64,000 nucleotides of DNA, taken from the NCBI GenBank assembly GCA_025362975.1, contig JANYES010000013.1:1-64000 (forward strand), read 5' to 3'. The notes beneath the pieces are model-generated. The model was not told where the DNA came from, did no database searches, and saw nothing but the letters and a program-made list of their open reading frames with translations. Source of the DNA: Alphaproteobacteria bacterium (GTDB lineage: Bacteria; Pseudomonadota; Alphaproteobacteria; Rickettsiales; SXRF01). Numbering within the stretch: the stretch's first letter is position 1; each line of letters begins with the position of its first letter. This document shows, piece by piece, positions 16,901 through 35,168 of this stretch. The position numbers and the translations under genes are program-made.

Positions 16901-17402
16901 CCTGAACGACGAAACCAATGCCGCGCTGCCGGATCTGAAGCGCCATGCGCAGTACCGCAAACTGATCCTGCATAAGCCGATAGACGATTTCGATGCCGGG
17001 CAGCAAGAACTTATAAGCTACTGCAAGCAGGCAGCCACGCTACCGCCAACGCAACTGCTCACCGGCCTGCTCAAAAAACTCCATGAACTGCACGGCACGC
17101 GCAACGCCGACGATCTCGCCGAAGCCATCGGCAGCTATGAAGAACAGCGCAATGGTGCGCGCGCCCCCCATCAGCAGCGCCAGCTTAAGCTCGATATTCG
17201 CAAGGCGATCGACGGTGAGCCGGTCATAATCCATGACGATTTGCTGGCGTGGGTCGCCGGTTTCGCCCTGCCCGGGCGCGAGCACGAAACGGCCCGCCAG
17301 CCATTGCTCAAAGCGCTCACCGGGCGGCACAGCGCGGTATCAAAAACCGGCGCGTACACCGACCTTGTAGCCAAAAAATCCGCCGCTTCCAGCCTAGCTT
17401 GA
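13947..17402 (+). CDS. Large multi-repeat protein with helix-turn-helix-like modules, unknown function
   Basis: 1151 residues with no signal peptide or membrane helix, so probably cytoplasmic. Four zones are visible. Residues 1-130 are a charged region containing VDAYAVGILLGYGSNELADFL. Residues 190-255 are Pro-rich. Two tandem repeats of about 100 residues start near 259 (KPWAYESVTTRQRVLDELE) and 366 (TRWSYDDVMPRELVVYQLE), each ending in a segment like VVEALQLLRHRQ or VMEALQSLRQRH. An Ala/Pro/Glu-rich linker spans about 470-640. The C-terminal half has helical units such as FFKALRVARGQDSYIELARTL, NSATISRWRTGRKEG and HSKYLGIDATRYYEII, reminiscent of XRE/lambda-repressor helix-turn-helix folds. 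I do not recognise the family. No clear ribosome binding site precedes the ATG pair at 13947. Confidence 0.8.
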   Translation: MMDDENLREPPATKAPKAWPEGMPDGPLKDMLVKGIAKTLAAGKIKDRAELDEVIARMGVLIAPEKKRGFREKPAPKPKLTLETWNEGRPGMYPVDAYAVGILLGYGSNELADFLKLAVNDYSRRATTTYNNRYTPQELPTERGMRDTVNGALVFVKMENRQHGDAAFEVEDDDDLRPTRYTKKTTPPATQASVEEVMKPRRTPLPFQELPSPVQEQPKPVKPKAPPVPRAPKSAPLANIPPVIREVRPPAAPDYDTTKPWAYESVTTRQRVLDELEQARESLQAAHDDQKSARSFAFKNDYAQSLIREMEVRYRAVPPVVEALQLLRHRQGAGYNIQIRRIKDEYDYIAPPPESVKPATRAVEIGTRWSYDDVMPRELVVYQLEYAYDKVQAAIIAENNASSGDYAIRKANEEAIGFILQVETNARPIPKVMEALQSLRQRHFGQFTALLAEIRGDKQTVISPPEPEAPVTYQAEAVLATAEAAGMHAPAAIVEAQTPAATAVYESEAALHVVETPAVVSTLRVSDETGMEKPAADIEAAPVHASADEETIAAEATVFKVAPRVRKPKAQTVEPAHDDTPNLTITPPVAVDLVAATSQIKPARVNKRKAHGIEPAVVSPQTKAALDHCFADENPSIDTGAMEVERAVEVGKFFKALRVARGQDSYIELARTLAQHNAGYASEEFDNLISAMSISERELGEPLSDAARNRTYRKHTNPELAQAIADYAYPPEAEQRSGANKRCVEFLSSKIYVTRKAKYRSNMVRESEGEEIGVNASGFKPAAIGKFRKPGGVADLLADAYTARDAMNGFDPAQAEKISIDLYKALTVQLSNGDLERASVGTLNGEETSLNSATISRWRTGRKEGDVKILVEVDHDKLLTVCDALAHSIAPDAATAEKLANLMAGVPWEGKKTNAQIVDYAVEHKLDGAALLQLQRRQLRMKNSEHSKYLGIDATRYYEIINPDSKKTAKTLSIGDFERLVERQGLNDETNAALPDLKRHAQYRKLILHKPIDDFDAGQQELISYCKQAATLPPTQLLTGLLKKLHELHGTRNADDLAEAIGSYEEQRNGARAPHQQRQLKLDIRKAIDGEPVIIHDDLLAWVAGFALPGREHETARQPLLKALTGRHSAVSKTGAYTDLVAKKSAASSLA

Positions 17403-17475
17403 TATTTTTTTCAACCTATACTTTTGCCCCCGGAACCGATATGCAGGAGTGACATATCATCAGGGCAGGGAGTTC

Positions 17476-19890
17476 ATGTTTACAACCGATATTCGCAAGA
17501 ATCTTGAAGGCTACATCACCGTGGCCTGCATCGCAGCGGCTACTATCGGGCTTGAGCTGGTTCAGACCCGCATCCTTTCCGCGCTATATTACAATCATAT
17601 CGTGTACCTCACCGTCACCATCGCGCTGATGGGGTTTGGCATCGCGGGCGTGGCCGTGAGCTTGTTATCGAACTGCATTACCGACTGGCAAAAGCCGCTG
17701 GCGATTTGCAGCGGGGCATTTGCGGGCTCGATTGTGCTTAGCATCTACATCGTCAGCCGCCTCCCGATGTGGTATCCGAACGCGCCGATTACCACCAAGC
17801 TGGTGTATTCCTACCTGTTGCTGATGCTGCCGTTTTTATGCAGTGGCACGGTTCTGGGGTTGATTTTCATGCGCAACGGTGCGGATATTTTCCGGTTTTA
17901 CTGTGCCGATTTGATGGCGTCCGCCCTGGCGTGCGGGGCGTTTGTGTTGCTGCTCAATCCGCTCGGGGCGAGCGGATTTGTGTGGGTGTGCGTGGCGCTT
18001 GCATGCGCGGCGTTTGTCCTGCTGGCACGCGCGGCGAAATTGCCGAGCCTTGATGTGTACGGCTTCCTGATCGCGGCTTTTGCGCTGTATATGCTGTGCG
18101 GCACGCATCTGGTCAACAACCAGCCCGAGCCGTATAAAACACTGGCCGCTAAAATGCGCATTCCCGGTGCGCATATCGAAGCGACGGAATGGACGCCGAT
18201 TACCCGCCTCGACGTAATCAATATGCCAGGCCGCGGCCTCGATTTGAGTCAGGATTCCGATGCGCATACGCCGTTTATCCACAGCGGGGTCGTCAACGGG
18301 ATCATCAACGGCGCGAGCCACGGACAAAACACGCGCGGTTCGGTGACGCTGGGGTATTTCATGCATGCACCGCATCCCGACCAGTCGCTGGTAATCGGTG
18401 TGGGTGGCGGTATCGATCTTGTGGCATCCCACGCGTACGGGGCGGTGCATACCACCGGTGTAGAAATCAACGGCGTCACGGCGCGCCTGACCAATGGCAG
18501 CTACGCCAATTACCTCGTCTGGCCACACTGGCCGGATGTGAAAGAAGTGGTGGAAGAGGGCCGCCACTACGTCCGTTCACACCCGCATGCCTATGATACC
18601 ATCACCATGAGCGGCATCGACACGTTTTCGGCGCTGAACTCCGGCGCCTACGTGCTGTCTGAAAACTACCTTTACACCACCGAAGCGTTTGAGGATTACC
18701 TGCGGGGCCTGCGCGCGAACGGCATCATGACCATCAACCGCTGGTTCGAGGCCATCCCGCCGCGTGAAAGCTTACGCCTGGCGAGCCTGCATGTCGAAGC
18801 CTCGAAACGACTGGGGATTGAACATCCCGAAAAGAACATCTTCGTCGTGGTCGATAACGACTGGGCGTCCACCTTCATCAAGGCCGAACCGTTCACACCG
18901 GAAGAAATCCATCGCGCTTTCGAGAAGATTGAAAAAACCCGCCTGCGCGTCGTCTACCTGCCGAAGATCTTCCCGCCGGAAGAACAGGCGGCGATTGAAA
19001 AGGGCCTCGCGGCGGGCCGCAACGCCGGGCTGAACGTGGCCAATGATGCTTATGAGCATGTCATCAATCCGCAATCACCGGAAGCGGAAGCGAAATTCCT
19101 CGACGACTACCCGCTTGACGTATCGCCTGTGTTCGACGACCGGCCATTCTTCTTCGAATACCACAAGGGCCTGTCGATCTTTAACTGGAGTCACGATGAC
19201 AACCGCATCCGCAAAAACGTGAAGAACAATCTGTACATCCTGCTGCTGGTGTGTCTCGTGGTTTCCGCCTGCGCCATTGTCGGGCCGCTGATGATCTTCA
19301 ACCGGCAGGGGCTGAAAACGCAAGGCGCGCCCTCGCTGCTACTGTATTTCGCGTGTCTGGGGCTTGGCTTCATGATGGTGGAAATCGGCATGATGCAGCG
19401 TCTGTCGCTGTATCTGGGCGACCCAATGCATTCGATGCTGGTGGTGCTGTCGGGCCTGCTGTTGTTTGCAGGCGCCGGCACGTATTTAAGCGGGCAGCTA
19501 AACGTGACGCGCCAACATCGCTTCCTGCTCGGCACCTGCGGTTCGGCAGTTGCGGTGCTGGGATGGATTATAGTAATGCCTACCGTCATCTGGCTGACGC
19601 AGGAATGGTATTTCGGCTTGCGTGTCATTATCACGCTGCTGAGCATGCTGCCGGTAGGCCTCGTGCTGGGTATACCGTTTGCCACAGGCCTTGAGTATCT
19701 GTCGGGCTATTGCCCGCGGTTTATTCCTTGGGCATGGGGCATCAACGGGCTGACCAGCGTGCTGGCGTCGATCCTTGCCATCATCATCGCCATGCAGGTC
19801 GGGTTTACCATCGTGCTGGTGATCGGTGCTGGAATTTATGCGCTGGGCCTGTTTGCCATCCGTGCACATGTCCGCAACGCGGCACATTGA
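17476..19890 (+). CDS. Integral membrane spermidine-synthase-like protein
   Basis: About 804 residues. The N-terminal third has several membrane helices, beginning YITVACIAAATIGLELVQTRILSAL, as in membrane-bound spermidine-synthase-like proteins. The central soluble domain has a Rossmann SAM-type loop (LVIGVGGGIDLVASHAYGA) followed by GVEIN and DTITMSGIDTFSA. The C-terminal third again has about six helices, ending in the family signature PWAWGINGLTSVLASILA. The track starts at a GTG. I choose ATG 17476 because GGGAG lies four bases upstream and the protein then opens MFTTDIRKN. Whether it makes a polyamine is unknown; many such fusions have no proven product. It is followed by about 280 bases without a gene. 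Confidence 0.8.
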   Translation: MFTTDIRKNLEGYITVACIAAATIGLELVQTRILSALYYNHIVYLTVTIALMGFGIAGVAVSLLSNCITDWQKPLAICSGAFAGSIVLSIYIVSRLPMWYPNAPITTKLVYSYLLLMLPFLCSGTVLGLIFMRNGADIFRFYCADLMASALACGAFVLLLNPLGASGFVWVCVALACAAFVLLARAAKLPSLDVYGFLIAAFALYMLCGTHLVNNQPEPYKTLAAKMRIPGAHIEATEWTPITRLDVINMPGRGLDLSQDSDAHTPFIHSGVVNGIINGASHGQNTRGSVTLGYFMHAPHPDQSLVIGVGGGIDLVASHAYGAVHTTGVEINGVTARLTNGSYANYLVWPHWPDVKEVVEEGRHYVRSHPHAYDTITMSGIDTFSALNSGAYVLSENYLYTTEAFEDYLRGLRANGIMTINRWFEAIPPRESLRLASLHVEASKRLGIEHPEKNIFVVVDNDWASTFIKAEPFTPEEIHRAFEKIEKTRLRVVYLPKIFPPEEQAAIEKGLAAGRNAGLNVANDAYEHVINPQSPEAEAKFLDDYPLDVSPVFDDRPFFFEYHKGLSIFNWSHDDNRIRKNVKNNLYILLLVCLVVSACAIVGPLMIFNRQGLKTQGAPSLLLYFACLGLGFMMVEIGMMQRLSLYLGDPMHSMLVVLSGLLLFAGAGTYLSGQLNVTRQHRFLLGTCGSAVAVLGWIIVMPTVIWLTQEWYFGLRVIITLLSMLPVGLVLGIPFATGLEYLSGYCPRFIPWAWGINGLTSVLASILAIIIAMQVGFTIVLVIGAGIYALGLFAIRAHVRNAAH

Positions 19891-20367: not shown

Positions 20368-22386
20368 ATGCCTGCGCCGAAAAAAGACGACAAGGTCCCC
20401 GCGTCCGAAAAAGAAGAAAACTTCGAAACTAAGCTGATCAAAAAAGATGCGGTCGCGCTGCAATACCTCGACAAATGCATCGGCGATATGTTCGGCATCG
20501 TCGGCCAGAAAATCATGGACGTGGAAGATGCTCTGCGCGCCAACCCCAACGCCATTCCCAAAACCGACCTCGAAACTAACGTCGACCGCTTAACCGAAGC
20601 GCTCAAATTCAAACCAGTCCAGAAAAAACTGGTGAGTTTCTTCACCTGCTCCGAACGCGGCAATTTCGATGTCATCTTGAAAGCCGCCTGCCGCGACGAC
20701 AAGGTGTCGTCGGCGTATTACGCCAAAAGCCTCGCCGTACTGCTCGATGAGAAAAAACCCGACGTGATCGAAAAAGCGCTGGACCGCAACCAGACGCTGG
20801 TGGGCATGAACTTCATCGGCATGGATAACGAAACCGGCATGTACCATGTCGAAGAATCGCTCGATGTGCTTTTGAGCAGTCGCTACAAGGACCGCGACGA
20901 ATTGTTGTCCAACCTCATCGGCCCGAAACCGACCACGGCGCTTACCCCGCGCGATTACGAATACATGGCCAAAGATTTCCAGGCCATGACCGAAACCATC
21001 CACGGGTATTTAGCTTCCCCAGCCAAGTCCGACGGGCAGGCGGACCCTAAAAACCTGCTGATTTACGGCCCCCCGGGCACCGGCAAAACCGAAATCACGG
21101 CGGCACTTTCGCAGAAACTGAACATGCCCGCCTTCCTCGTGGGCGTTGCTAAAAAAAGCGACGACGGCAATGCCGCCATGACCGAACCCAAACGCGAAGA
21201 TCGCCTGAAAGCACTCGAGCGCGCCGCCTTCATCCTTCGCACTTCGGGCATCAAGGGTTTCCTCGTCATTGACGAATCCGAAGACATCCTGCGCAGCGCC
21301 GGGCAGAACCCGACGGGCAGCAAGGAATACGTCAATCGCCTGCTCAACCACCTCGCCGTGCCGGTGGTGTATATCTCCAACCAGCACTCTTACGACCCTT
21401 CCAACATCCGCCGCATCAGCCCTTGCTTCAGCATGGACTACATGCCGATTTCCGCCAAGGCCAAGGTGATCGCCACGCAGGCGGAAAGCCTAGGTAAAGT
21501 AACGCTCACGCGGGAAGAATCTATCGATCTTGCCGCCAAGGCGGTCGATCTGTCGGTGGCCGATGTCGCTAAATCCATTCGCACCATCTCGCAGCAGTTT
21601 TCGTTCAGCAAAAATCCGCAGAAAGACCATTTCGTCCAGAATATGGAAATCGAAATCGAGCGGGCGCTGCGCATCAAGAACAACGGCGTACCGCCCTCGC
21701 CAAAGCCCACGCCGCTGAATGAAAAGAACTTCCATGCCGAACTGGTTTCCACCAACGCCACCTCGTTTACGGCGCTGCGAAAAAACCCGGCGAAACTGAC
21801 CGGCAAACCGACACTGGTGTTCGGCTGGCCCGGAACCGGCAAAACCTCGCTCGCGCAGGCCATCGTCGGCAAGGCGGGCAAAGACACGCAGATTCCCCCG
21901 CGCGTCATCAACTGGAGCACGATGAAGGACGACAGCGCCTTTGCCATGCAACTCGAATACGCCAAGCGCGATGGTGTGGCCGTGATTATCGACGATATCG
22001 ATCTCAAGACCTTCCAGAAGGAGGCGAACACGATGGAGCGCATTCATGAACACCCGTATCCAGTGATTTTCGTGGGCCGCCTGAACCGTAGCATGTCGCA
22101 AGAAGAAATCGCCGACGCCGTGGACGGGTTCATCCCGCTTTCCACCGATAATTTGACCAAAGAACAGACCGTCGCGGCAGCTAAAAAAATCCTGAATGTC
22201 GATGTGGCGGAGAGTGAGCTGAGTACGGTCGAAAACCTCAACATCCAGTCGATCGTCACCATCCGCGACCATATCGACGCCATCGGCGTACTGGGTGATA
22301 AAAAACTGACGATGGAGTTGATGAAAGAACAAGCCAAGCTGCGTAGCCCCGTATCCGACCCGAGCAAGCGCATAGGGCGGTCATAG
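20368..22386 (+). CDS. Tandem AAA+ ATPase, unknown role
   Basis: 672 residues with two ATPase modules. The first has Walker A YGPPGTGKTEI (about residue 233) and Walker B FLVIDESED. It is followed by a Sensor-1-like VVYISNQHS and an Arg-rich IRRISPC. The second has Walker A FGWPGTGKTSL near residue 490. Its Walker B reads VAVIIDDIDL, where Asp replaces the usual catalytic Glu, so this module may bind ATP without efficient hydrolysis. The N-terminal 200 residues are helical and unassigned. No membrane helix is seen. The architecture recalls tandem-AAA remodelling ATPases, but no substrate-binding domain is recognised. The start codon lacks a strong ribosome binding site, which fits translational coupling to the 58-residue ORF just upstream. 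Confidence 0.82.
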   Translation: MPAPKKDDKVPASEKEENFETKLIKKDAVALQYLDKCIGDMFGIVGQKIMDVEDALRANPNAIPKTDLETNVDRLTEALKFKPVQKKLVSFFTCSERGNFDVILKAACRDDKVSSAYYAKSLAVLLDEKKPDVIEKALDRNQTLVGMNFIGMDNETGMYHVEESLDVLLSSRYKDRDELLSNLIGPKPTTALTPRDYEYMAKDFQAMTETIHGYLASPAKSDGQADPKNLLIYGPPGTGKTEITAALSQKLNMPAFLVGVAKKSDDGNAAMTEPKREDRLKALERAAFILRTSGIKGFLVIDESEDILRSAGQNPTGSKEYVNRLLNHLAVPVVYISNQHSYDPSNIRRISPCFSMDYMPISAKAKVIATQAESLGKVTLTREESIDLAAKAVDLSVADVAKSIRTISQQFSFSKNPQKDHFVQNMEIEIERALRIKNNGVPPSPKPTPLNEKNFHAELVSTNATSFTALRKNPAKLTGKPTLVFGWPGTGKTSLAQAIVGKAGKDTQIPPRVINWSTMKDDSAFAMQLEYAKRDGVAVIIDDIDLKTFQKEANTMERIHEHPYPVIFVGRLNRSMSQEEIADAVDGFIPLSTDNLTKEQTVAAAKKILNVDVAESELSTVENLNIQSIVTIRDHIDAIGVLGDKKLTMELMKEQAKLRSPVSDPSKRIGRS

Positions 22387-22980: not shown

Positions 22981-23688
22981 CTATATTACATGACTAAAAT
23001 CAGTGAATATCATCTTTAATGACGTCGCTCCATTTAATTTCACCCTAACTTTTTCAGGCTGCTCAATGGCAAGATGCTCTGTGAATCGGTAGAGCAACGT
23101 TGAATAGCGACATGATTTACGCGTATCGAAGTATAATAACTCCGCTGGCAGCGCATCTTTTGCATCGTATTTGAATGGGGGATAATCACAGGAAATAAGG
23201 CCTAGACGCTTATATAGCTTACTATATGTGCCTATTTCCGCTGTCGTGTAGGCAATAGGAGCCATAGAAAACGCGTAATCAAATGCAGTACGCAGCAATG
23301 CCAGCAAGATAGTTTGCTTGCCTCGCCATTCATAGGCAAAGGCAAGACGGTTTAACTCACTTGCCAGCGCACAGGTAATCACGTCCGGCAAGAGGATGTA
23401 ATGCTCTAATTCTGAAAACGGTTGTAGGAGAACGCGGAAACACCCAATGACGCAGCCATGATGCACTGCACCGAACCATGCCGCTTTTTGGGCTAATGCA
23501 TCGTAGAGATAAGCGCCTTGCTTATCTTTCTTGATTCGCAATCCTGATTTATTGTCTGTCGGGGGAAGCCAGCCTTTCTCAATGACATACACTTCGTGTA
23601 GCAACCGGAGCGCTTCGATAATTTCATCGCCATGCAACTGTCGTATCTCAACGCCTTCAACCATTACGGCAGTGCAGATAGACTTCAT
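22981..23688 (-). CDS. Autoinducer-synthase-like (LuxI/FeeM-type) N-acyltransferase
   Basis: 235 residues. Features shared with acyl-homoserine lactone and N-acyl amino acid synthases, which use a GNAT-like fold and acyl-ACP, are an N-terminal helix with LLHEVYVIEKGW, the central strand GCVIGCFRVLL (Arg equivalent to LuxI Arg70), and ASELNRLAF (equivalent to the E-x-x-R-F strand). A conserved helix GKQTILLALLRTAFDYAFSM and TAEIGTYSKLYKRLGL follow. The classic LuxI DxxD pattern is not obvious, which favours an N-acyl amino acid (FeeM) or PEP-CTERM-associated type over canonical AHL synthase. GAGG lies five bases before the ATG. It sits downstream of a LuxR-type gene in the same direction. Codons are A/T-richer than in core genes, suggesting acquisition. 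The product is unknown. Confidence 0.65.
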   Translation of the reverse strand: MKSICTAVMVEGVEIRQLHGDEIIEALRLLHEVYVIEKGWLPPTDNKSGLRIKKDKQGAYLYDALAQKAAWFGAVHHGCVIGCFRVLLQPFSELEHYILLPDVITCALASELNRLAFAYEWRGKQTILLALLRTAFDYAFSMAPIAYTTAEIGTYSKLYKRLGLISCDYPPFKYDAKDALPAELLYFDTRKSCRYSTLLYRFTEHLAIEQPEKVRVKLNGATSLKMIFTDFSHVI

Positions 23689-23761
23689 AAAGACCTCAAA
23701 GCATTATATGTGAACCAAGAAATTCGTTGGGTCGTAGCTTACGAGGTGCAATGAAGTCGCG

Positions 23762-23781
23762 CATACCCCAAACGAGGTATG
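23762..23781. promoter_or_regulatory. Candidate lux-box-like palindrome
   Basis: CATACC-N8-GGTATG is a 20-base inverted repeat with perfect six-base outer arms. It lies about 75-95 bases before the synthase start and just past the luxR-like stop. Lux boxes are also about 20-base palindromes in this position. No T run follows, so it is unlikely to be a terminator. Binding by the adjacent LuxR-type protein is inference. Confidence 0.35.
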
Positions 23782-23793
23782 AATAGCGTTATA

Positions 23794-24931
23794 TCAGGAA
23801 TGGCATAAAAGCGGATTGTTGAGAATAGCGCGTATCAAATCGCTTTGGCGGCTGGTGCCAGTCTTTGAAAAAATGGTTTTAAGCTGAGTTTTAGCAGTAT
23901 GCAGGCTGATTTCGACACGCTCAGCATAGTCCTGCAAACGCTCACCCTCTACCAATGCAGCCGTTAAACGCGCCTCCGCAGGAGTAAGTCCATAATGCTG
24001 GTTTAGTAGTGAAGGATTGATAGCACGTTTTTGATTAGGGTTAGTGATGAAAATAACAGCTTTTGGGTGATGCCGTTCAGACTCTGCATGTTCAGGCCTT
24101 AAAGGGCTTATTAAAATGGTTGAGGGAGCACCATGACGGTTAGGTAATGTCATATGACCCCCAGCATGAATACAGCGGCCTACACCTGCAAGGGCTGCGT
24201 CTTTGATTAACTTTAATAGTACAGGATTACGCGTAACTTCTTCTGTATAAAGCCGCCCCGAACGTACACTCAGCCCCATTTTTGATGCCAGTGCCTGCTC
24301 ACCGATACCGTTGCAGAATAGAATCTTTGCAGCAGCATCAACGACAATTATGCCGATATTGGCGTTTACTAATCCTTCTAACGCCGCATTTTGTTGGAAA
24401 GAGAGAGCGTTCAGCCGATTTGAAAGACGAATGGCTTGCGTTAAATGCGGAATAACAAAATTGCAGGAGCGTTTTATCTTTTTCGCCAAACTCCTTTTCC
24501 CCTTCAGCCCGATGCACTCCGAACACGCCGCGAAGATTCTGGCTGAGAGGCAATATGGTTCCCATGACATCGGCGATGCCAATTTGTTTGACCCAATCAT
24601 TGTAGAACTCCGTGCCCGTCAACTCCCGCCGTGCTATCACATCGTCGCTGACGAAAATTTTCCCGAATCCATCCAAAGGAATACTCTGCGCCCATAAATC
24701 CGTTTTATAGTAATGCGCCTCATAGCTGACAACCATGTCTGGAGTATAATTAGTGGTAAAGCCGAGAGGTATAGCTTGCCCTGCATCAGTATCCAACAAT
24801 GCCAAAGCACAACTGTGAGAATCAAACGCTTTGGCAATTAAGCCAACCATACCATCCCACCCGCGCTGCTCGATTGGCGTTGCGTAAATGTCTTCAATCA
24901 GTCTGGAAAGTTTTGCGAAGTCTTTTGACAT
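23794..24931 (-). pseudogene. LuxR-type transcriptional regulator, frameshifted
   Basis: Two overlapping ORFs (24338-24931 and 23794-24600) make one regulator of about 378 residues if one base is removed. The first frame reads to KDKTLLQF and the second resumes at VIPHLTQAIRLSNRL. The switch lies at the A4 run 24457-24460 (TTTT on the coding strand), which would be TTT in the intact gene. The N-terminal part is a sensory-type domain (LIEDIYATPIEQRGWDGMV, AHYYKTDLWAQ), the middle is PAS-like, and the C-terminus is a LuxR helix-turn-helix (GLTPAEARLTAALVEG through AKTQLKTIFSKTGTSRQSDL). The start ATG at 24931 has AGGG upstream. A six-base inverted repeat TGCTTG-AAGG-CAAGCA lies about 30 bases upstream. 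Real inactivation and sequencing error are both possible. Confidence 0.75.
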
Positions 24932-25326
24932 GATAAACCCTATGCAACAGAACTTGGAGCCTGCTTGAAGGCAAGCAAATTCTTACCATTTGATTTTACA
25001 GGTGTAAACAGTATCTGCTCAATTTTGATTATTTGCCGCCAAGCATGGAGTCACTATAGAATAGACTGACTATATCACGCAGGGCTATTTTGTATGCTTC
25101 TAATGCCCGTAGCGTATACTTACGATTAAAACTCAAAGAAGCATGTTTCCTTTGTTCCTTAAAAGCGGAACAAAGTGAATAATTTTGGATGCTCTTGCTT
25201 ACGGGCTATTTACCTCGATCACCTGAAGTGGTCAAGCTATTGAAAAAAATGGCGTATCTGAGATGATTCGAACGTCCGATCTTTGCCTTCGGGAGGCAAG
25301 ATAAATTCTATGTTGGCATATCTCTG
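24932..25326. other. Gap with hairpin and decayed tRNA segment
   Basis: About 395 bases between the luxR-like start and the pbpC stop, with no supported gene. It contains a perfect nine-base inverted repeat CTTTGTTCC-N8-GGAACAAAG (25150-25175) and the degenerate 3' half of a tRNA-Arg (see the repeat entry). Confidence 0.6.
25195..25299 (-). repeat. Degenerate copy of tRNA-Arg 3' half and its flank (direct repeat 1)
   Basis: This segment matches 33889-33995 in the same orientation, with about 85 percent identity by eye over the last 80 bases. It covers the anticodon-stem to CCA part of tRNA-Arg plus about 50 bases of 3' flank (GGTCAAGCTATTGAAA). Most mismatches are C to T on the plus strand. 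The 5' half of the tRNA is absent, so it cannot be functional. Together with the intact tRNA it brackets pbpC and the macroglobulin genes. Confidence 0.8.
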
Positions 25327-27561
25327 TTAAATAGGGTTCAGATCAATATCTAGCACCATTACTTCACATTGAAATGCACGATATCGGAAGAAACGATCTT
25401 TTTTTTCATCGTCTATCTCGTTTGCCGTTAATGTGTGATGGCCGCGCTCCACCGGCCATAGGAAGCTCCCTCCTTCGGTGGTGGTAACGGGCTTCCCGTT
25501 AAGTACCCACACTACCTTGCGGCCAGCGGCGATACCACCTGCGACAAATTCAAATGCCTGGCGGTCGGAAGGAATACGAGGATCATAGGCAATCTGTAAT
25601 CCTTCGGTTGGCCGTATCAGTGTAAGACCGCGCGGTGGATCAGTGCGCTTTTCACCACTTGGTTCAGTGCCGGGGATAAAATATTCCGTGCGTGAGAAGC
25701 AATCTTTTTTCCCGGCACCTTCATCATAGTTGGTGCATATTTCTTTCTGTACCAGCTTCGGACTTAAGTAGAGCGCATGGGCTGTGCCAAGTTCGGCAAG
25801 GTCGGCAAATATTCCGCGCAATATAAGTGCTGGTCCTACAGAGCCTGTAATGCCGTCCATAGGTGTTTGGTCTAAATTGCCGAGCCACACACCCACCGTA
25901 TAGCGCGAATCAAAGCCAAGCACCCAGGCATCCCGGTAATCCGTAGAGGTGCCTGTCTTGACGGCGGTTTGTACTGGAAGATTGAGCACGCTTCCTGCTC
26001 CGAATTCGCGCCTGCGGGCGAATGGATCGGAGAGAATATTAGCAATTAACGAAGTTGCTTCCGGCGAATAGATACGGACGTTTTCACGGGTAAATGGTGG
26101 TTGAGGCAAGGGCGTCAGCGGGCGGAATACGCCACGATTTGCCAAGGCACTATATCCCTGAACCATTTCAAATAATGTCACCTCTCCATTACCCAGCGCG
26201 AGTCCTTCTTTATAAAATTCCACTGGCTGTGTAAGGCTCGAAAAGCCAAGCGCGTGCAACGTGTCAAGATAACGGGATGGCGTTATGAATGTAATTGTTT
26301 CCAACGCCGGGATATTGAGAGAATTGCCTAACGCTTCCCGAAGTGAAATTTTACCGTAAAATGTATGGCTGTAATTATGGAAATCATGCAACCCAGAGCC
26401 GATAGCCTCAGCCATAGGTGCATCATCCAATTCTGTTGCTGGCGACCAGCCAGAATCAAGCGCCATTGCGTATAAGAACGGTTTCATTGATGATCCGGGT
26501 TGACGCGGCGAGCGCACGGTATCGATGTCATGTCCCGGCGTTTCTGTCTTCAATTCTTCATTTCCGGCGCCGCCTACCGCCCAGGCAAGAATTTCGCCTG
26601 TGGTATGATCGACTACCAGCAGTGCGCCATTATGCACCTGCTTGCGTTTTAATGCCTTGATTCGCTCATCTAGCAAACTTTGTGCTGTATGCTGCAATTC
26701 GCCATCCAAAGTCGTAAGTAATGCGCCATTCTCGCTTAAACGATAGGGGATCGTTTCACGAATATAATTAATGAAATGTGTTGTGCTTAGTGGTGGTGAA
26801 GGCAGTTCAAGGGTGATGGTTTCAGCAAGTAATTGTTTATTTTCCTGCTCTGTTAATTCCTTGCGCTCGATCATACTCTGGGCAAGTCTTGCAACGGCGG
26901 ATTCTATCGCATCGGGATTTTTATACAAATCGAGTGCCGATGGTGCGCGGGGCAATATAGTTAGTGCCAGCATTTCCTTATGCGTCAGCGTATCCATATC
27001 ACGGTTGAAATAATAACGGGCCGCTTGCGCTACGCCACGGCGGTTGGCTGCATACGGCACCTGATTAAGGTAAAATTCGAGGATTTCACCTTTGCTTGCA
27101 TGCATTTCCAATAAGGTTGCCTCAAATCCTTCAACCCAACGCGACCATAAATTGCGCGGGCGTGGGTGAATAATCCGCACTACTTGCTCGGTAATCGTGC
27201 TGGCGCCACGCACCGATTTGCGTGCGTGAATATTCTGCCATAAGGCGCTGGCGCGGGCTTTCCAATCCACACCGTGATGCTCAAAAAAATGTCGATCTTC
27301 CGAAGTAACGAATGCCTGACGCAGTAATTCAGGCATTTCGTGCAATGGCACAATATCTACCGTATTGAAACGGTTCTGATAGGAAATACCGAGCGGTTTG
27401 CCCCGGCGGTCTAACACTTGGAAACGTTGGGCATCGTTTGTCGCGGCACGCAAAGAGAGCGTTGGTGTTTGCACGTCCCATGCGGTTTTGAAGGCAATAA
27501 CAGCAACAAGTGCTATTGTCCCGCGAAACGCTATTTTCCCATATCGTTTGTATTTTGACAT
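25327..27561 (-). CDS. pbpC: Penicillin-binding protein 1C
   Basis: 744 residues, a class A bifunctional PBP. In order: N-terminal membrane anchor (about residues 10-25), GT51 transglycosylase with EDRHFFEHHGVDWKA and GASTITEQVVR, and transpeptidase with SSMKPF (active-site Ser), GNSLNIP and KTGTSTDYRDAW. A C-terminal PBP1C-type beta domain (VVWVLNGKPVTTTEGGSFLWP) completes it. It builds and crosslinks peptidoglycan at the periplasmic face. The start is 11 bases after the macroglobulin stop, the usual macroglobulin-pbpC operon of proteobacteria, where the two are thought to cooperate in envelope defence and repair. Confidence 0.95.
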   Translation of the reverse strand: MSKYKRYGKIAFRGTIALVAVIAFKTAWDVQTPTLSLRAATNDAQRFQVLDRRGKPLGISYQNRFNTVDIVPLHEMPELLRQAFVTSEDRHFFEHHGVDWKARASALWQNIHARKSVRGASTITEQVVRIIHPRPRNLWSRWVEGFEATLLEMHASKGEILEFYLNQVPYAANRRGVAQAARYYFNRDMDTLTHKEMLALTILPRAPSALDLYKNPDAIESAVARLAQSMIERKELTEQENKQLLAETITLELPSPPLSTTHFINYIRETIPYRLSENGALLTTLDGELQHTAQSLLDERIKALKRKQVHNGALLVVDHTTGEILAWAVGGAGNEELKTETPGHDIDTVRSPRQPGSSMKPFLYAMALDSGWSPATELDDAPMAEAIGSGLHDFHNYSHTFYGKISLREALGNSLNIPALETITFITPSRYLDTLHALGFSSLTQPVEFYKEGLALGNGEVTLFEMVQGYSALANRGVFRPLTPLPQPPFTRENVRIYSPEATSLIANILSDPFARRREFGAGSVLNLPVQTAVKTGTSTDYRDAWVLGFDSRYTVGVWLGNLDQTPMDGITGSVGPALILRGIFADLAELGTAHALYLSPKLVQKEICTNYDEGAGKKDCFSRTEYFIPGTEPSGEKRTDPPRGLTLIRPTEGLQIAYDPRIPSDRQAFEFVAGGIAAGRKVVWVLNGKPVTTTEGGSFLWPVERGHHTLTANEIDDEKKDRFFRYRAFQCEVMVLDIDLNPI

Positions 27562-27571
27562 GGCTTAAGCC

Positions 27572-30500
27572 TCAAGGCTTTGCCGCCGGTGCCGTTTCCT
27601 GCTCACCAACTTTTAGATTTAACCCCTCAGTTTTGCCATATACGTCAGGATCGTACATTTCCTCAGCCATGCTAGGCAAGGCACTGAACGTGCCGGTGGC
27701 GATAGCTTGTGCAGCATAGGACAGGTGATAATTTCCTGCTGGCAAATAATCGGAATAGAAGCGCACCGAATCATGCCGAATTTCTTGATGGTAGAAGCTC
27801 CAGCGGCTCACTCCAAAATCAATCCAGTCGGAGAACTTAAACCAGAACGAACCACCCGCCGCGCTAAAATCACCTTTTCTGGCATCGACTTCGGATGCGG
27901 TTGCGAGATCACGATTGACTGGCTCCAACCCACCCGGCACCGAATCATCTACTACTACGAAATTGCGGGCGGCGGGAACGGATAGATATAAGTCAACGCG
28001 CACCAATTCGCCGCGCTTAATTTGTGCGGGCGATTGTAGCAATTCCCATTTTCCACCGCGTTCAACACTATATTCGCGGTGTATTTCTATACCGGCATTG
28101 GCAGGTTTGCTCATTTCAACTGGCAATGCGTAAGCCAGCCGTGTTGCGTAATAGAGCCGTCCCGTACCGCTACGCTCGATTTGGACAGTTGCTTTACGGC
28201 CAGCATCGCCATCTTTAATTGGACGTTCTAAGCTCGCTGCTGGATCGCGTACGTCTTTGAAGGCCGCTTTGCCAAAGGTTTCACCATCCATGCTCGCTTT
28301 AACGGCCATGTTCGGTTTATCTTTCTCATAAACACGCGCAAAATCTATCAGCGCATTCATGCAGAACATATTTTCCTGCGTATTTTCCCAATGGTCACGG
28401 TTTTTGCGATCCTGAGTGATGGCACGCACCAGTTTGAACAGCACATCACCAACCAGTTTCTTGCCATCTTCACGTTCACCATAAGCCGTGAATGCATCAA
28501 GCACCGCACAATTTTCACGCAGCGGTGAGGCAAGAATACGGGTATAGCTATCATCCCATGTTTCGCTGAATACAAACTTGCCGCCAGTTTCATTAGAGGT
28601 GGCCAATATCATCTTCGCTACATCGGGCGCATATTTCTCTCCGCCTTTAATCGCCAATGCCGCTTGCATGAAATAGCTTTTGCCGAACAGCGACATTTTC
28701 TTCACATGCGGTTGATAGCGCTCCAAATCAGCTATGTCGGTTTTACCGCGCTCAGCCAATGCAGCCAACGCCACCGCACGCACGGTAGAAGTCATGCCTT
28801 CGGAATAGAAATCCGGCACGGCATCGTTCTTAAGTAGATTGCTCAAATAGGTATGCAGTTTATTTTCTACTTGCTCAGGAACGGTATAACCGCTTTTACG
28901 CAGCCAGTTGAAGGCAATGGCCGTATAAGCGCTTAAGTACGGATCGACATACTGATCCTGCGCCAGGAAATAGGTCATACCGCCATTTGGCGCTTGGAAA
29001 CTTGCCGCCTGATCGAGCGTGGATTGTGGCAACGCATCACTGCCTTCCCATTTTAGGCCATCAGGTAAATAGGCTTTCAGGTTCTTATAGTGCGCCGCCA
29101 TGACGCCTTTGCTCAATTTCTGCTCCCAACACATATATGGATAATCACGCATATACTTAAATGCGCCCGAAACATTTCCGATAACGGTCGGTGAGGCAAT
29201 AACGCTAACGCTGCCAATATCCGGTAATATATCTTTCGGGAACTGGATAGGTTCTTCGATTTTATCTTGTGTGGTGGTGCCATAATTAGCAGCAACGTTA
29301 AGGCTGCGGCGCTTGTTTACCGGCACATTATGCACCATGCCATCACGATCAAGCTCATCACCCGCCATGACAGTAAAACGTAACTCTCCAGCTTCTACAT
29401 CGCGCGAAAGCGCTATCGCTGTGGTTTGAATCGGCATCAACACGGTTGTGCGTTTATAAGGAGCCAGTGTAACCGTTTTCGTCAAGTCGGCAGGGGTTTT
29501 AGCCGCATCGAGATTACCCTCGGTATGAACGGTAACATTAAGTGTGCGTTCCTTGTCAGTGCGATTCATCACACTGAATCCGGCATCGAATGTATCACCT
29601 TCCATAACCTGATTTGGCATCACGGGGCGCACTTCCGTAGGGCGATTAACTTTAAAATTAGCATCACCCAACCCGAAACGGTCAGTTGGCGTGGTGGCAA
29701 TGGCCAGAATACGCCAACCAGTCAGATTGTCCGGCGCATCAAAGGTTGCGGTTGCGTTACCGTCCTTATCGGTTTTAAGTTCAGCATTCCAATAACTCAC
29801 GAATTTGAACAAGGAACGCATGCTCAAATCTGCGCCGCCATCGCCGCCGGGATTCGCGCCTTTTTTCTCAAATCTTTGGCGACCGAGAAGCCGGGTAAGT
29901 AGGCTGTAGTTCCGTAAATCGAGGCTATCTAACTTATAAAAGCCAGCGTATGGATCAAAATAGCTTTTGCCACCAGCAATCAAGTCGAATACCGATTCGT
30001 CAAGTACGGCAACCGTGAGTTCGATAGGCTCCTTTTTATCCTTCATGCGCGGCTCGGCATGTAGCGTTACCGTTACTTTATCACGCGGCTTGTAAACCGG
30101 TTGGGCGGTTTTAGCAGTGATCACCATTTCCTTGTAAGGGTCTTTCACTGGCACCGTGACATAACCCATACGGTAGGTAGGCTTACCTAAATCCACTTGG
30201 CCTTCGCCTAACGGTTTTTCGACACGCGGTGAAACGATAACGACCGAAAGATAGAATCCCGGCAGGTAGTCAGGTTTGATTTTGAATTCGACTACAGGCG
30301 TAGAGCTATCGAACGTTTGCACGAAATGATCGATGACGCCGTAGCGCTCGATGGTGATCAATGCTTTAGCGCCCGGATAGGGATTTTTTACCAAATAGCG
30401 TGCGGTATCGCCTACTTTATAGTTAGTGCTTTCGGGAACAATGGTCAGGCTGCTATCGCTGCCATTATCCCACATAACAAAATCATGGCCGACCGCATAG

Positions 30501-32080
30501 GTGCTGAGGGTCGTGGAATGGTCATTGCCCTTAGTATCCTTGATTTTGGCTATTGCACGATAAACACCGGCTTTATCGGGTGTAAATGTGCAGGTAAGTG
30601 GTGCATCTTCCGATGCTCCTTTGCATCTGCCCACTGCCTCCCATTCACTATGATATTCCGTCAGGTAAGCATTGCCCGCGCCTTTAACGCGTGCCGCCTT
30701 GGTGGTTTGATGTTCCAGCGCAATATTTACCGGCGTGCCTTTAACTGGATTGCCGTGATCATCCACGACGATATATTGAATCGCAGCTGGTTTTCCTACG
30801 TTGTAGAGCCATTCGGTAGCATGAAGGCCGACCAAGCGATCAACGCCCACATAATCGGCATGCGATTGACCAGTAATATATTTACCCCGATCATCGGCAA
30901 CGGCGCTTTCTACCAGTAGCTTCCCATAAACCACTTTGGGAGTGCCGGTCGAAAAATTCAGCGCAAGTTCGCCTTTATCATTCACCTTATCGATTTTCTG
31001 GAAAATCTGCTGCGAAGGCGTTTCGTATTGGTAGCTATCGAACTGGAAATTTTTAGCCAACGGATGCTTGGACATGAATGGCGCACTATCAAGCATTGCA
31101 GTAATGCGCGTCGCGGCATCCGTATATGCACCGCCAGAGTGCAATTCGGCGTGGGTTGCTACATCCACTTGCTCGTCGGCATGAAATAGATCGCCGTTCA
31201 GCTGGTTGCCTACATGGGAAGAGGAAGGCGTAAAATCGCTGACCAGCACCCGCATGGGAATCCATGATTTCTTAGTGGCGCTATATCTGTCATTATCAGC
31301 GTCATTATTTCTACCATCGGCACCGCTGTCAGGCTGTTCTTCGGCGTTTTCATCCTCATTATCATCAGATTTAGCAGCAAAATCGGCAATCAATTTGAAT
31401 TGATACCAACCCACCGCGCCTTCTTTAGGCACGATAAATTCGCCGCTTGTTCCGCCGAAGGGTGATAGCTTGACGTCTTTAACATCTTCCACCACCTTAC
31501 CCATAGGATCGAGGATTTTTAACCGGTAGCCTTTGGCTGGCCCAGGTATGAAACCATTATTGTCCTGATTGCGGACGTAGATTTTATACTGGATTGTATC
31601 CCCGGCACGGTAAATCCCTTGTGCGGTAGTACCCCAAGTACGCATATGCCCATAGCGCTGCTTATTGGAAGGATAAACCGATTCGCTACCCGAAGCGCGG
31701 TAAGCATCTATGATAAACGATTGCGCTATCGGCAATAGCGCCATGTCATCACCTTTTTCCACGCGCAGGAAATAACGCGTATCTTCATCACGATATTTGT
31801 TTGTAATCGAAAGATCAGGGTCGAGCGTATCCGTTCCCGGCAGGAACGCTATACCGGAAACATCGGTTGTGGCTTGCGCCGTATTATCTTTAACCGTGTG
31901 CAGCGTTGTGAATGCATCTTGATATATACTAACTTTAGCGCCAGCGACCGGAGCGCCACTAACCATATCCGTTACCCAGGCGATCGTATTAAAATGACCA
32001 AGTTTAAGATGCACCTGATAAGGTGCTACCTGTGCAAATAGACGAGGGTAATATTTTCCGACAACTGGATCGGTTTGCAA
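27572..32080 (-). CDS. Bacterial alpha-2-macroglobulin, C-terminal 1500 residues (frameshifted from N-terminal part)
   Basis: The larger of two ORFs from one broken gene. It contains the repeated macroglobulin beta domains, the bait-region neighbourhood and the thioester motif as CWEQ (in YMCWEQKLSKG, near 29120-29131). The helical thioester domain (PNGGMTYFLAQDQYVDPYLSAYTAIA) and the C-terminal receptor-like domain follow. Such periplasmic proteins trap foreign proteases through the thioester and pair with PBP1C. The in-frame homology extends upstream of the ORF start: the other frame reads GAVFGSLQTDPVVGKYYPRLF, so the first Met here is not a true start. With the part at 32026-33660 the intact protein would be about 2030 residues. 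Confidence 0.85.
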   Translation of the reverse strand: MQTDPVVGKYYPRLFAQVAPYQVHLKLGHFNTIAWVTDMVSGAPVAGAKVSIYQDAFTTLHTVKDNTAQATTDVSGIAFLPGTDTLDPDLSITNKYRDEDTRYFLRVEKGDDMALLPIAQSFIIDAYRASGSESVYPSNKQRYGHMRTWGTTAQGIYRAGDTIQYKIYVRNQDNNGFIPGPAKGYRLKILDPMGKVVEDVKDVKLSPFGGTSGEFIVPKEGAVGWYQFKLIADFAAKSDDNEDENAEEQPDSGADGRNNDADNDRYSATKKSWIPMRVLVSDFTPSSSHVGNQLNGDLFHADEQVDVATHAELHSGGAYTDAATRITAMLDSAPFMSKHPLAKNFQFDSYQYETPSQQIFQKIDKVNDKGELALNFSTGTPKVVYGKLLVESAVADDRGKYITGQSHADYVGVDRLVGLHATEWLYNVGKPAAIQYIVVDDHGNPVKGTPVNIALEHQTTKAARVKGAGNAYLTEYHSEWEAVGRCKGASEDAPLTCTFTPDKAGVYRAIAKIKDTKGNDHSTTLSTYAVGHDFVMWDNGSDSSLTIVPESTNYKVGDTARYLVKNPYPGAKALITIERYGVIDHFVQTFDSSTPVVEFKIKPDYLPGFYLSVVIVSPRVEKPLGEGQVDLGKPTYRMGYVTVPVKDPYKEMVITAKTAQPVYKPRDKVTVTLHAEPRMKDKKEPIELTVAVLDESVFDLIAGGKSYFDPYAGFYKLDSLDLRNYSLLTRLLGRQRFEKKGANPGGDGGADLSMRSLFKFVSYWNAELKTDKDGNATATFDAPDNLTGWRILAIATTPTDRFGLGDANFKVNRPTEVRPVMPNQVMEGDTFDAGFSVMNRTDKERTLNVTVHTEGNLDAAKTPADLTKTVTLAPYKRTTVLMPIQTTAIALSRDVEAGELRFTVMAGDELDRDGMVHNVPVNKRRSLNVAANYGTTTQDKIEEPIQFPKDILPDIGSVSVIASPTVIGNVSGAFKYMRDYPYMCWEQKLSKGVMAAHYKNLKAYLPDGLKWEGSDALPQSTLDQAASFQAPNGGMTYFLAQDQYVDPYLSAYTAIAFNWLRKSGYTVPEQVENKLHTYLSNLLKNDAVPDFYSEGMTSTVRAVALAALAERGKTDIADLERYQPHVKKMSLFGKSYFMQAALAIKGGEKYAPDVAKMILATSNETGGKFVFSETWDDSYTRILASPLRENCAVLDAFTAYGEREDGKKLVGDVLFKLVRAITQDRKNRDHWENTQENMFCMNALIDFARVYEKDKPNMAVKASMDGETFGKAAFKDVRDPAASLERPIKDGDAGRKATVQIERSGTGRLYYATRLAYALPVEMSKPANAGIEIHREYSVERGGKWELLQSPAQIKRGELVRVDLYLSVPAARNFVVVDDSVPGGLEPVNRDLATASEVDARKGDFSAAGGSFWFKFSDWIDFGVSRWSFYHQEIRHDSVRFYSDYLPAGNYHLSYAAQAIATGTFSALPSMAEEMYDPDVYGKTEGLNLKVGEQETAPAAKP

Positions 32081-33660
32081 AGAACCAAATACCGCGCCTG
32101 TTTTTCATCCAACATATCGCGCACGCCGAAGGGAACGGCAAATTGCACATCCTTCACACCCGGAACGTCTTTATGGAATGTCTGCCCGTCATCGCTGCTT
32201 TTGGCAGTCAAGCGGCGATAGTTGAATGTGTAATTATTCAGGTTATTAACAAAGAACGGCACTTCACTATCAACTCCCTTCTCCAATACTGCATCGCTGT
32301 AATCCAACACAAAGTTAGGATTGCGATGGTCGGTCGCAAAGGTAGAGGAAATAGAATGCCGCATCTCCCGACCGAACATATCCTGCACTTCGATAGGGTC
32401 TTGATGTTTGAACCATGACTTGATCCAATGCCATAGCCACTCGAAAATATTCATCGTCTGTGAGCGCGATTGCACCGTATATTCTTGTGCGGCTTTCAGG
32501 CCACCAGGGAGCCATACTTCATACGTTTTCCCTTTGCTATGTGGCTGGCGGAATTGATAGCCAACCTCAGCGCCACCTTCGGCATTATCCGTTGTTTCCG
32601 CTTCTTGTGTCTCCTCATCTGATTCCTTCCAGCCGCCGACCGGAGGGGTGAATTTTACCATCTTACCCATTTTGTCGCGCTCTACCGGCGTAGTGAACGA
32701 GAGCTGTACGCCCTGCATCGGATTGCACTTCCCAGTGGGCGACGTGTCAGCCGGAACCAGCAATTCTTTGCCATCATTCATGGTGCATTTAACGCCAACG
32801 AAGGTGAATTCCGGGTAGGTATCGAATTGCACGATTTCGTTGGAAGTAATACTAGCCTCAGGGCCAAGCGCAGAGATCAGCCCTGGCTCAGTTTTCAACA
32901 CTATATGCGTATCCAGCGGCAATTCCCTCACCGGCTCGATCAACCATATCCTGCGTGCTTCTTTTCCTGATTTTTTACGAAGATCATCATCGCTTTTTTG
33001 CGATGGTGCTTTTTTAAAGAGCAGCGCGTACCTCTCTCCCGGAACGGGGATGAATTGTGGTTGCTCATGATCCGTTGGGTCAGGCTTAACCTTAAGTGCG
33101 ACACGTTTATTATCATCGCCTACATTCAGGAACACATGCTGCGCCACCGATTCCTTATCCACCGGCTGATTGAACACCAATCGCATAATTGGATATCCCG
33201 GCGATTTCCACAGGCGGAATTCCTTATAGCGAATATCGGAACGCTGGGTAATGAAGCTGTGGTGATAGGTATCGGGAATGGTTACGTCATCTTCCGCTTT
33301 AATTCCTGGCTTGATTTCCAGGGTGTAATGCGTCGCTTCCCTGAGCGGCTCCTTGTCCGGCAGATTACACGCAAGTGCCGATGTATTTATCCACCGCCAT
33401 TCGCAAGGAATAGCCGGAGTAATGATTACAGGAATTTCGGAAGACGGACGCTCCATTTTCCCGATAGGCACCACGGGACGATTAAATTGGATGACAATCT
33501 GCTTACCGGTAGGTACATCCTCACCGTCCGGCGTAACTCTTATAATTTCTAGAGTTTTAAGTTTGGCTGCTTCAGCGGAATCAAAAGCAGCATAGGTAGT
33601 AAAAGGCGATAATAATACTATCGCGGCAGTAACAAGAAATAAGAAACGATTTGGAAGCAT
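32026..33660 (-). CDS. Bacterial alpha-2-macroglobulin, N-terminal part (frameshifted)
   Basis: Encodes the true N-terminus: signal peptide MLPNRFLFLVTAAIVLL ending near TYA-AFDS, without a lipobox, then the first macroglobulin domains (VQLSFTTPVERDK, TFVGVKCTMNDGKELLVP). Homology stops after DMLDEK. Adding one A to the A5 run (coding strand; TTTTT at 32101-32105 on plus) gives DEKTGAVFGSLQTDP and joins the downstream ORF. The last 20 or so residues of this ORF are therefore out of frame. Either the gene is inactivated, the run is misread, or a minus-one slip at GAA-AAA-C occurs; I favour the first two. Confidence 0.85.
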   Translation of the reverse strand: MLPNRFLFLVTAAIVLLSPFTTYAAFDSAEAAKLKTLEIIRVTPDGEDVPTGKQIVIQFNRPVVPIGKMERPSSEIPVIITPAIPCEWRWINTSALACNLPDKEPLREATHYTLEIKPGIKAEDDVTIPDTYHHSFITQRSDIRYKEFRLWKSPGYPIMRLVFNQPVDKESVAQHVFLNVGDDNKRVALKVKPDPTDHEQPQFIPVPGERYALLFKKAPSQKSDDDLRKKSGKEARRIWLIEPVRELPLDTHIVLKTEPGLISALGPEASITSNEIVQFDTYPEFTFVGVKCTMNDGKELLVPADTSPTGKCNPMQGVQLSFTTPVERDKMGKMVKFTPPVGGWKESDEETQEAETTDNAEGGAEVGYQFRQPHSKGKTYEVWLPGGLKAAQEYTVQSRSQTMNIFEWLWHWIKSWFKHQDPIEVQDMFGREMRHSISSTFATDHRNPNFVLDYSDAVLEKGVDSEVPFFVNNLNNYTFNYRRLTAKSSDDGQTFHKDVPGVKDVQFAVPFGVRDMLDEKQARYLVLCKPIQLSENITLVYLHR

Positions 33661-33888
33661 TTAATACCGCGCGCGATGGGACGAGCGGATCATAAATTAT
33701 TTATATTCAAATGCTACTGATTTAGTGAAACGTTAGAAATTGTGCGCATGCGCAATGGCGAATTGGCGGCCTCGATACGAATCTAACGTGCGGCCTGGTC
33801 TTTCGGAGGGGCGCTTTATCTAGTTGAACCGTACAAAATAATACCCTATTGCTTGCTTTCATTCATTCCATTTATGCAAGTTCTTATC

Positions 33889-33995
33889 TTGCTTACGAGC
33901 TATATTCTGTACGGTCACTTGATGTGGTCAAGCTATTGAAAGTATTGGCGCACCCGAGACGATTCGAACGTCCGACCTTTGCCTTCGGAGGGCAA
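33889..33995 (-). repeat. Direct repeat 2: tRNA-Arg 3' half plus flank
   Basis: The intact partner of the degenerate repeat at 25195-25299. It covers the anticodon stem to 3' end of tRNA-Arg and about 55 bases downstream. The spacing between the two repeats is about 8.6 kb and contains only pbpC and the macroglobulin. Confidence 0.8.
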
Positions 33996-34022
33996 CGCTC
34001 TATCCAGCTGAGCTACGGGTGC
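33946..34022 (-). tRNA. tRNA-Arg (anticodon CCG)
   Basis: On the minus strand the sequence folds as a full cloverleaf. The acceptor is GCACCCG with CGGGTGC, the D arm is AGCTCAGCTGGATAGAGC, and the anticodon stem TTGCC/GGCAA has loop CTCCGAA (anticodon CCG, reading CGG). The T arm has GTTCGAATC, and the discriminator G is followed by an encoded CCA at 33946-33948. The 3' end faces the pbpC/macroglobulin region. Confidence 0.95.
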
Positions 34023-34151: not shown

Positions 34152-35168
34152 ATGGCTCGCATCACATTAAATCCTGAATTCGAAGATGGCCTGCGGGCAA
34201 AACTAGCTGAATACCAGGAACGCTTACAGGATCAGAAGGAAGCTAACTCACATGCCGCCCCGGAACTGGTAGGGCTTAGCACCCGCGCCAAAATCGAAGC
34301 GACGAAAGCGCTGCTGGAAAGCCCCGACGGCATCGACACCGCCGAGCTGGCCTTAAAACTCAACGCCAAATACGGTTCGGAAGCCGGAAATAAAGCCCTT
34401 GATGTGGTCACCGGATATAATCGAAACGGCGGGAAATCGCTATTCGCTGGAACCGGGCTTAAAAAACCGGAGAAAAAGAAACCTGTCGCCGCGCTTGTCA
34501 AAACCGGCAGCTTCACCGAAGCGCTCGCCGCGCAAGGCAAACCCGAAGCCATGTCGCAGGAAGAGTTCCAGCAACGCTATAATATCGACAACTATGCCCA
34601 CGGCGAAGATAAATTTGCCACGTTCGACTATCAGGGCATGGTGCACACGCGCGACGGCGACGTTATCTTCAAAGACGTGATGGCCACCAACGGCCTGCTG
34701 AAATCCGACGGCAACGACGGCATTCATGTCGGCACCGATGGCATCGTCGGTTATAGCGCACTCTCCGAAAACCATCGGATGAAAGGCCCGCAGGACGTCG
34801 GCGAATACGATATGTACATCAAAATCCCGGCCGCTATCCAGCAAGCGACCAATTCCTACACCCAGTACGACCAGTGCTTCGCCGCCAGCGAATTCGACGG
34901 CACGCCGCAGGAATTGCGCGAAATGCGCGAAAACGAAAATTACGTCGTCATCCGTACCAATCTCAACCCGCATGAAGACTCACTGGCGCGTCAGAAAATG
35001 CGCATTATCCATGAGGGCGTCATCACCCATATCGACAACGGCGGCAAGCTGGAGCAGATATCCGAACTCGTGTCCGCTATGGAAAGCCGTCTCGACCAGA
35101 TCGCCAGTCAAAGCCCGGCCGCGCTTAACCGCGTGAATGTCAGCTCCGGCAAGCTGATGCTAGATTAA
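34152..35168 (+). CDS. Unknown protein, 338 residues
   Basis: A soluble, acidic protein without signal peptide or membrane helix. The N-terminal third is helical (FEDGLRAKLAEYQERLQDQKEA, AKIEATKALLESPDG). A Lys/Pro linker (GLKKPEKKKP) leads to a mixed domain with MVHTRDGDVIFKDVMATNG and EYDMYIKIPAAIQQA. The C-terminus is helical (LEQISELVSAMESRLDQIA). AGGGGG lies four bases before the ATG. It sits immediately outside the tRNA-Arg in the opposite direction. No family is recognised; codon use is like the core genome. Confidence 0.75.
   Translation: MARITLNPEFEDGLRAKLAEYQERLQDQKEANSHAAPELVGLSTRAKIEATKALLESPDGIDTAELALKLNAKYGSEAGNKALDVVTGYNRNGGKSLFAGTGLKKPEKKKPVAALVKTGSFTEALAAQGKPEAMSQEEFQQRYNIDNYAHGEDKFATFDYQGMVHTRDGDVIFKDVMATNGLLKSDGNDGIHVGTDGIVGYSALSENHRMKGPQDVGEYDMYIKIPAAIQQATNSYTQYDQCFAASEFDGTPQELREMRENENYVVIRTNLNPHEDSLARQKMRIIHEGVITHIDNGGKLEQISELVSAMESRLDQIASQSPAALNRVNVSSGKLMLD

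Follow-up and report, generated by a model that had tools for sequence, protein, structure and literature searches.

At about an even chance, we read the two adjacent genes at 22981-24931 of the window (the whole 64,000-nucleotide stretch of DNA analysed here) as an accessory locus in which a likely acyl-thioester N-acyltransferase with a non-AHL product lies beside a frameshifted regulator that is not a signal receptor, the locus being partly decayed. In the mechanism we propose, accessory DNA would occupy a variable region adjoining tRNA-Arg(CCG), and the 235-aa protein encoded there (P0001) would most likely belong to the LuxI/FeeM superfamily and act as an N-acyltransferase that depends on acyl thioesters. 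The predicted reaction of this synthase is the acylation of an amine, for example an amino acid, with a fatty-acyl chain whose donor is probably acyl-ACP; a homoserine lactone would be an unlikely product. The adjacent gene appears to have encoded a transcription factor of the LuxR family, with sensor regions that resemble GAF and PAS, and would not have specified an autoinducer receptor. A one-base frameshift now interrupts it, so that the regulator has probably lost any control of the synthase, and the locus gives the impression of partial decay. The ORFs, the frameshift, the domain content, the missing motif, the AT-rich block, the tRNA with its partial copy and the lack of close homologs in the searched genomes are observed directly, whereas we infer the enzyme activity, substrate, mobility and decay. 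The features of the pair are as follows.

22981..23688, minus strand: divergent LuxI/FeeM-superfamily acyltransferase-like ORF (P0001), putative; intact frame of 235 aa, Pfam FeeM and LuxI HMM matches
23762..23781, no strand assigned: 20-bp imperfect palindrome CATACC-N8-GGTATG between the regulator and the synthase
23794..24600, minus strand: C-terminal part of the regulator, with a PAS-like region and the HTH, out of frame with the N-terminal part; ORF with GerE and MctR HTH matches
24338..24931, minus strand: N-terminal part of the regulator (GAF-like); ORF, frame comparison, and homologs that span both halves in one frame

A putative, very divergent LuxI/FeeM-superfamily acyltransferase

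P0001 had one notable match in Pfam, to FeeM (PF21926; 20.7 bits, E 3.9e-4, residues 26-164), the sole named family with E<0.1, which falls short of the curated cut-off of 27 bits for that family. Autoind_synth (PF00765, searched up to E 1) and PF13444 were unmatched in Pfam, no generic GNAT Pfam family appeared at E 1, and NCBIfam returned zero matches. True LuxI and OlsB proteins included as positive controls matched their own Pfam models strongly, and because they matched FeeM as well, the FeeM model is non-specific; a survey of the FeeM family across the class also returned many LuxI cross-matches. A LuxI HMM built here gave P0001 13.2 bits, compared with a maximum of 8.2 bits among 5000 shuffles, and the two best phmmer matches among the retrieved phylum loci were LuxI proteins. 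When the PDB was searched by sequence up to E 10, 4-coumaroyl-HSL synthase (a LuxI) was the sole match, and its E of 1.6 was not significant. Degenerate patterns, which limit the reach of the search, were scanned against 85,000 species genomes and picked up three Methylobacterium LuxI proteins that match P0001 at 32-34% over ~100 aa. A match among the phylum loci (L046, from genome G412, labelled as the same class) is a LuxI nearly identical to these three, which suggests an alphaproteobacterial origin for the window.

At E<=0.001, searches of 131 relatives, 384 further genomes of the class and 398 further genomes of the phylum (some overlap; ~900 Pseudomonadota genomes) gave no homolog of P0001, and neither did searches of plasmids, phages and viral contigs. 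All similarities of P0001 to LuxI and FeeM are weak and lie under curated cut-offs, and as judged from the sequence they weakly but consistently support its placement as a very divergent member of the superfamily. The LuxI/FeeM features reported in the initial annotation hold up, if weakly: the FeeM E value, the score above all shuffles and the predominance of LuxI among the best weak matches favour them, and FeeM is indeed the top HMM match, but the scores stay below cut-offs, and Autoind_synth is unmatched. The extreme divergence of P0001 could itself reflect decay of the synthase.

Individual residues bear on the likely product. In LasI, the residues Arg23, Phe27 and Trp33 belong to the SAM pocket (PMC1282579); in P0001 the aligned Arg is replaced by Leu30 and the Phe by Tyr34, and the Trp is kept as Trp40. 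The acids of the LuxI E-x-D-x-x-D / DxxD pattern are absent from P0001 in two alignments, confirming an absence already remarked on when the sequence was first read. Arg85 is kept at a conserved LuxI position, and one of these two alignments also pairs Glu112/Arg115 with the E-x-x-R of LuxI. Since the SAM-pocket Arg and the DxxD acids are missing, an AHL product is unlikely, and from these lost residues it is plausible, as was originally suggested, that P0001, if active, makes something other than an ordinary homoserine lactone.

Set beside LuxI (PF00765), P0001 has weak local similarity in its N-terminal half, with Trp40 and Arg85 aligned to conserved positions, but it differs in leaving the family model unmatched, in lacking the SAM-pocket Arg and DxxD, and in its longer C-terminal tail. 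FeeM (2g0b) resembles P0001 in that both are without the SAM-specific residues, and on inspection the KLYKRLGL-type C-terminal segment of P0001 resembles FeeM-like loci (L002, L007), whereas its sub-cut-off score, on a model also matched by LuxI and OlsB, sets it apart. AlphaFold models of P0001 were of low confidence, with pLDDT of 35 from the single sequence and 43 from an alignment with four LuxI proteins. A fold search with the latter gave FeeM 2g0b as top match (E 0.16), and the model resembled many GNATs too; given the low confidence of the models, the 2g0b match is not evidence on its own.

A frameshifted regulator and a marginal palindrome

The regulator consists of two overlapping ORFs in different frames, the frame being lost at ~24450-24460 by a one-base frameshift. 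A LuxR-type HTH gene followed on the same strand by an acyltransferase had been described at the outset; an HTH coding sequence does lie upstream of the synthase, with both on the minus strand, but the gene is split between two frames. Its HTH matched GerE below cut-off (11.7 bits, residues 205-257) and the MctR HTH at E 1.3e-4. Pfam gave weak traces of GAF_2 and PAS, and the autoinducer-binding domain PF03472 was unmatched. Read through the frameshift solely to serve as a query, the regulator found homologs in 47 other genomes among 289 searched in the class, mostly single proteins of ~375 aa, the best of them 36% identical over residues 6-375. GAF/PAS-HTH LuxR-family regulators of Alphaproteobacteria (e.g. 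G333:C1:3237311-3238417) are like it in length and architecture, at 36% identity, but with rare exceptions they are intact single ORFs, and they have no LuxI/FeeM-like neighbour within ~1.5 kb.

None of 29 homologous regulator loci had a protein similar to P0001 within ~1.5-kb flanks, and no conserved link of this regulator family with such synthases emerged from them. Because of the GAF_2 and PAS traces and the lack of an autoinducer-binding domain, the regulator is, as far as its sequence indicates, a protein with GAF-like, PAS and HTH regions from a family common among Alphaproteobacteria and not a LuxR quorum-sensing receptor. The frameshift involves just one base of a draft genome and could stem from misassembly.

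The palindrome CATACC-N8-GGTATG starts 12 bp past the stop codon of the regulator and 73 bp ahead of the ATG of the synthase, and this is its sole exact match in the window. In the 105-bp gap, the exact 6-8-6 geometry is expected by chance with p = 0.016, and a pair of 6-bp arms around any loop of 3-12 with p = 0.13, which places the palindrome just beyond chance and makes it marginal. An intrinsic terminator was looked for at this site and was not found.

A different contig of the same genome carries a canonical luxR-luxI pair (C20:277975-279257; luxI PF00765 E 2e-21, luxR PF03472 E 2.2e-30), which provides lux boxes for comparison. Two identical 20-bp lux-box palindromes, ACCTATACGTTCGTATAGGT, flank luxR, one before it and one between luxR and luxI (L107:5795-5814 and 6674-6693, which are G000 C20:277794-277813 and 278673-278692). 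Even when up to 3 mismatches were allowed, this lux box had no match in the window. The sequence and position of the intergenic palindrome are as first described, but its lux-box-like character fares less well, its significance being marginal and its sequence unlike the lux boxes of the genome. The canonical pair resembles the pair in the window in its regulator-then-synthase order and in the superfamily of its synthase, and differs in that its proteins are true members of PF03472 and PF00765 and its two lux boxes are identical. The C20 luxR frame holds two in-frame stop codons, and luxI is intact. Together with the frameshift in the window, these stops mean that both synthase-neighbouring LuxR-type genes are broken as assembled.

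An AT-rich block in a variable region at tRNA-Arg

The genes beyond the regulator, and the tRNA with its partial copy, are listed here.

25193..25299, minus strand: degenerate partial copy of the 3' half and flank of tRNA-Arg(CCG), a possible att remnant; repeat
25327..27561, minus strand: pbpC (penicillin-binding protein 1C); TIGR02073 E 2e-140, GC3 0.46
27572..33660, minus strand: alpha-2-macroglobulin-like gene, frameshifted, in two frames (27572-32080, 32026-33660); ORFs and frames, homolog in the same-genus genome G001
33946..34022, minus strand: tRNA-Arg(CCG), probable integration site; ARAGORN, Rfam tRNA 65.5 bits

The GC3 of the synthase, the regulator, pbpC and the alpha-2-macroglobulin-like gene is 0.37-0.52, compared with 0.58-0.74 in core genes. 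These values confirm the earlier impression that the patch is AT-richer than the core, but the patch is not limited to the pair; it extends from ~22.4 to 33.9 kb and takes in pbpC and the alpha-2-macroglobulin-like gene. The partial tRNA copy at 25193-25299 aligns with 33887-33995 at 82% identity over 109 columns (E 5e-25) and lies 8.7 kb from the tRNA. G001 also has the pbpC and macroglobulin genes, at 52-72% identity of the encoded proteins, and its pbpC has a GC3 of 0.77 and a different neighbour. The alpha-2-macroglobulin homolog of G001 is also split, but elsewhere along the gene.

In a second genome of the genus (G002), the corresponding tRNA-Arg is flanked by the same conserved genes, with xerC and priA on one side and ppdK and glyS on the other, and a phage-type integrase lies there, together with a partial copy of the tRNA and unrelated genes. 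Because the G002 site differs in gene content, 13.9-35.2 kb of the window constitutes a variable locus at the tRNA, and this comparison suggests that the tRNA-Arg site is a hotspot of integration within the genus. The features of a tRNA-associated genomic island are present, namely a tRNA, a duplicated 3' end, atypical composition and variable content between relatives. No integrase for this AT-rich block was identified, and a plasmid DNA search with the region found nothing. Since pbpC and the macroglobulin gene, and not the pair, lie between the tRNA and its degenerate copy, the exact island boundaries are unproven. Horizontal acquisition of the pair, as initially proposed, is plausible from its place in a tRNA-Arg-associated variable region, subject to those boundaries.

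Further genes in the region include one for a protein with two AAA ATPase domains (window 20368-22386), for which a defence-system reading was rejected, the matches to anti-phage ATPase models being weak and far below cut-off. Three variable-region proteins are without any Pfam match (13947-17402, 1151 aa; 17449-19890, 813 aa; 34152-35168, 338 aa).

Alternative explanations

A functional acquired pair would have the synthase make a non-AHL acyl signal, sensed by the LuxR-type protein (the frameshift being an assembly error), with the synthase activated via the palindrome. Codirectional adjacency, regulator then synthase, is what such a pair would display, as are the superfamily membership of the synthase and a palindrome 73 bp upstream of its ATG; against this, the regulator is frameshifted and has no autoinducer-binding domain, the synthase accompanies none of the 29 homologous regulators, the palindrome is marginal and unlike the lux boxes of the genome, and no relative of the pair was found in the genomes searched. 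We regard a functional pair of this kind as improbable, and on the same grounds the signalling pair of the initial annotation is not sustained: the regulator is frameshifted and does not belong to the signal-binding type, which makes a working pair unlikely. We give very little credence to the bolder proposal of a new LuxI/FeeM branch, in which a non-AHL acyl-signal synthase under a GAF/PAS LuxR-family regulator spread via tRNA-Arg and the frameshift reflects either misassembly or recent loss. Both genes might instead be decaying remnants without current function, as the frameshifts in the regulator and in the alpha-2-macroglobulin-like gene of the same AT-rich block, the lack of close homologs and a weak codon signal would suggest. 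The synthase nevertheless has an uninterrupted frame of 235 aa that outscores its other frames, and P0001 keeps several superfamily residues, so we consider full decay unlikely.

Alternatively, P0001 might be a generic acetyl-CoA-using GNAT acetyltransferase that resembles LuxI/FeeM in its N-terminal half by chance. That similarity is short and weak, and the low-confidence AlphaFold model resembles many GNATs too, but no generic GNAT Pfam family is matched at E 1, the top sequence matches are specifically FeeM and LuxI, and the LuxI HMM score beats all 5000 shuffles, which leaves this explanation rather unlikely. The PEP-CTERM/exosortase-associated acyltransferase (TIGR03694) belongs to the same broad acyltransferase superfamily as P0001, and P0001 could represent such an enzyme displaced from its cluster, since a VPLPA-CTERM exosortase XrtD and a PrsT-like TPR protein are encoded on contig C21 of the same genome. 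We judge this highly improbable: P0001 did not match TIGR03694 up to E 5 or 10, it is not adjacent to exosortase genes as these lie on C21 with none seen in the window, and the best whole-genome matches to TIGR03694 were an OlsB-like protein and the canonical LuxI. Exosortase genes elsewhere had been anticipated as a possible explanation for the acyltransferase, and a cluster with XrtD does exist, but with TIGR03694 unmatched it does not explain the gene. The cluster (L105:8938-13888; G000 C21 ~168.9-173.9 kb) comprises XrtD, the PrsT-like TPR protein and a small protein whose C-terminus resembles VPLPA-CTERM below the cut-off. On contig C26, an OlsB-like acyltransferase that explains the sub-cut-off TIGR03694 match lies beside an acyltransferase-like gene (G000 C26:198133-198486; L110:1441-2253), and these probably serve ornithine-lipid synthesis.

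Implications

A regulator that adjoins an acyltransferase can mimic a quorum-sensing pair, and here the domain content, the reading frame, the neighbours of homologs and the lux-box control from the same genome argue against a true pair. If active, P0001 would represent a very divergent synthase of acyl-amino acids, present in an alphaproteobacterium alongside an ordinary AHL synthase, and it could bring a new product type to the LuxI/FeeM superfamily. The genome may show two acyl synthases persisting while both of the adjacent LuxR-type regulators are broken.
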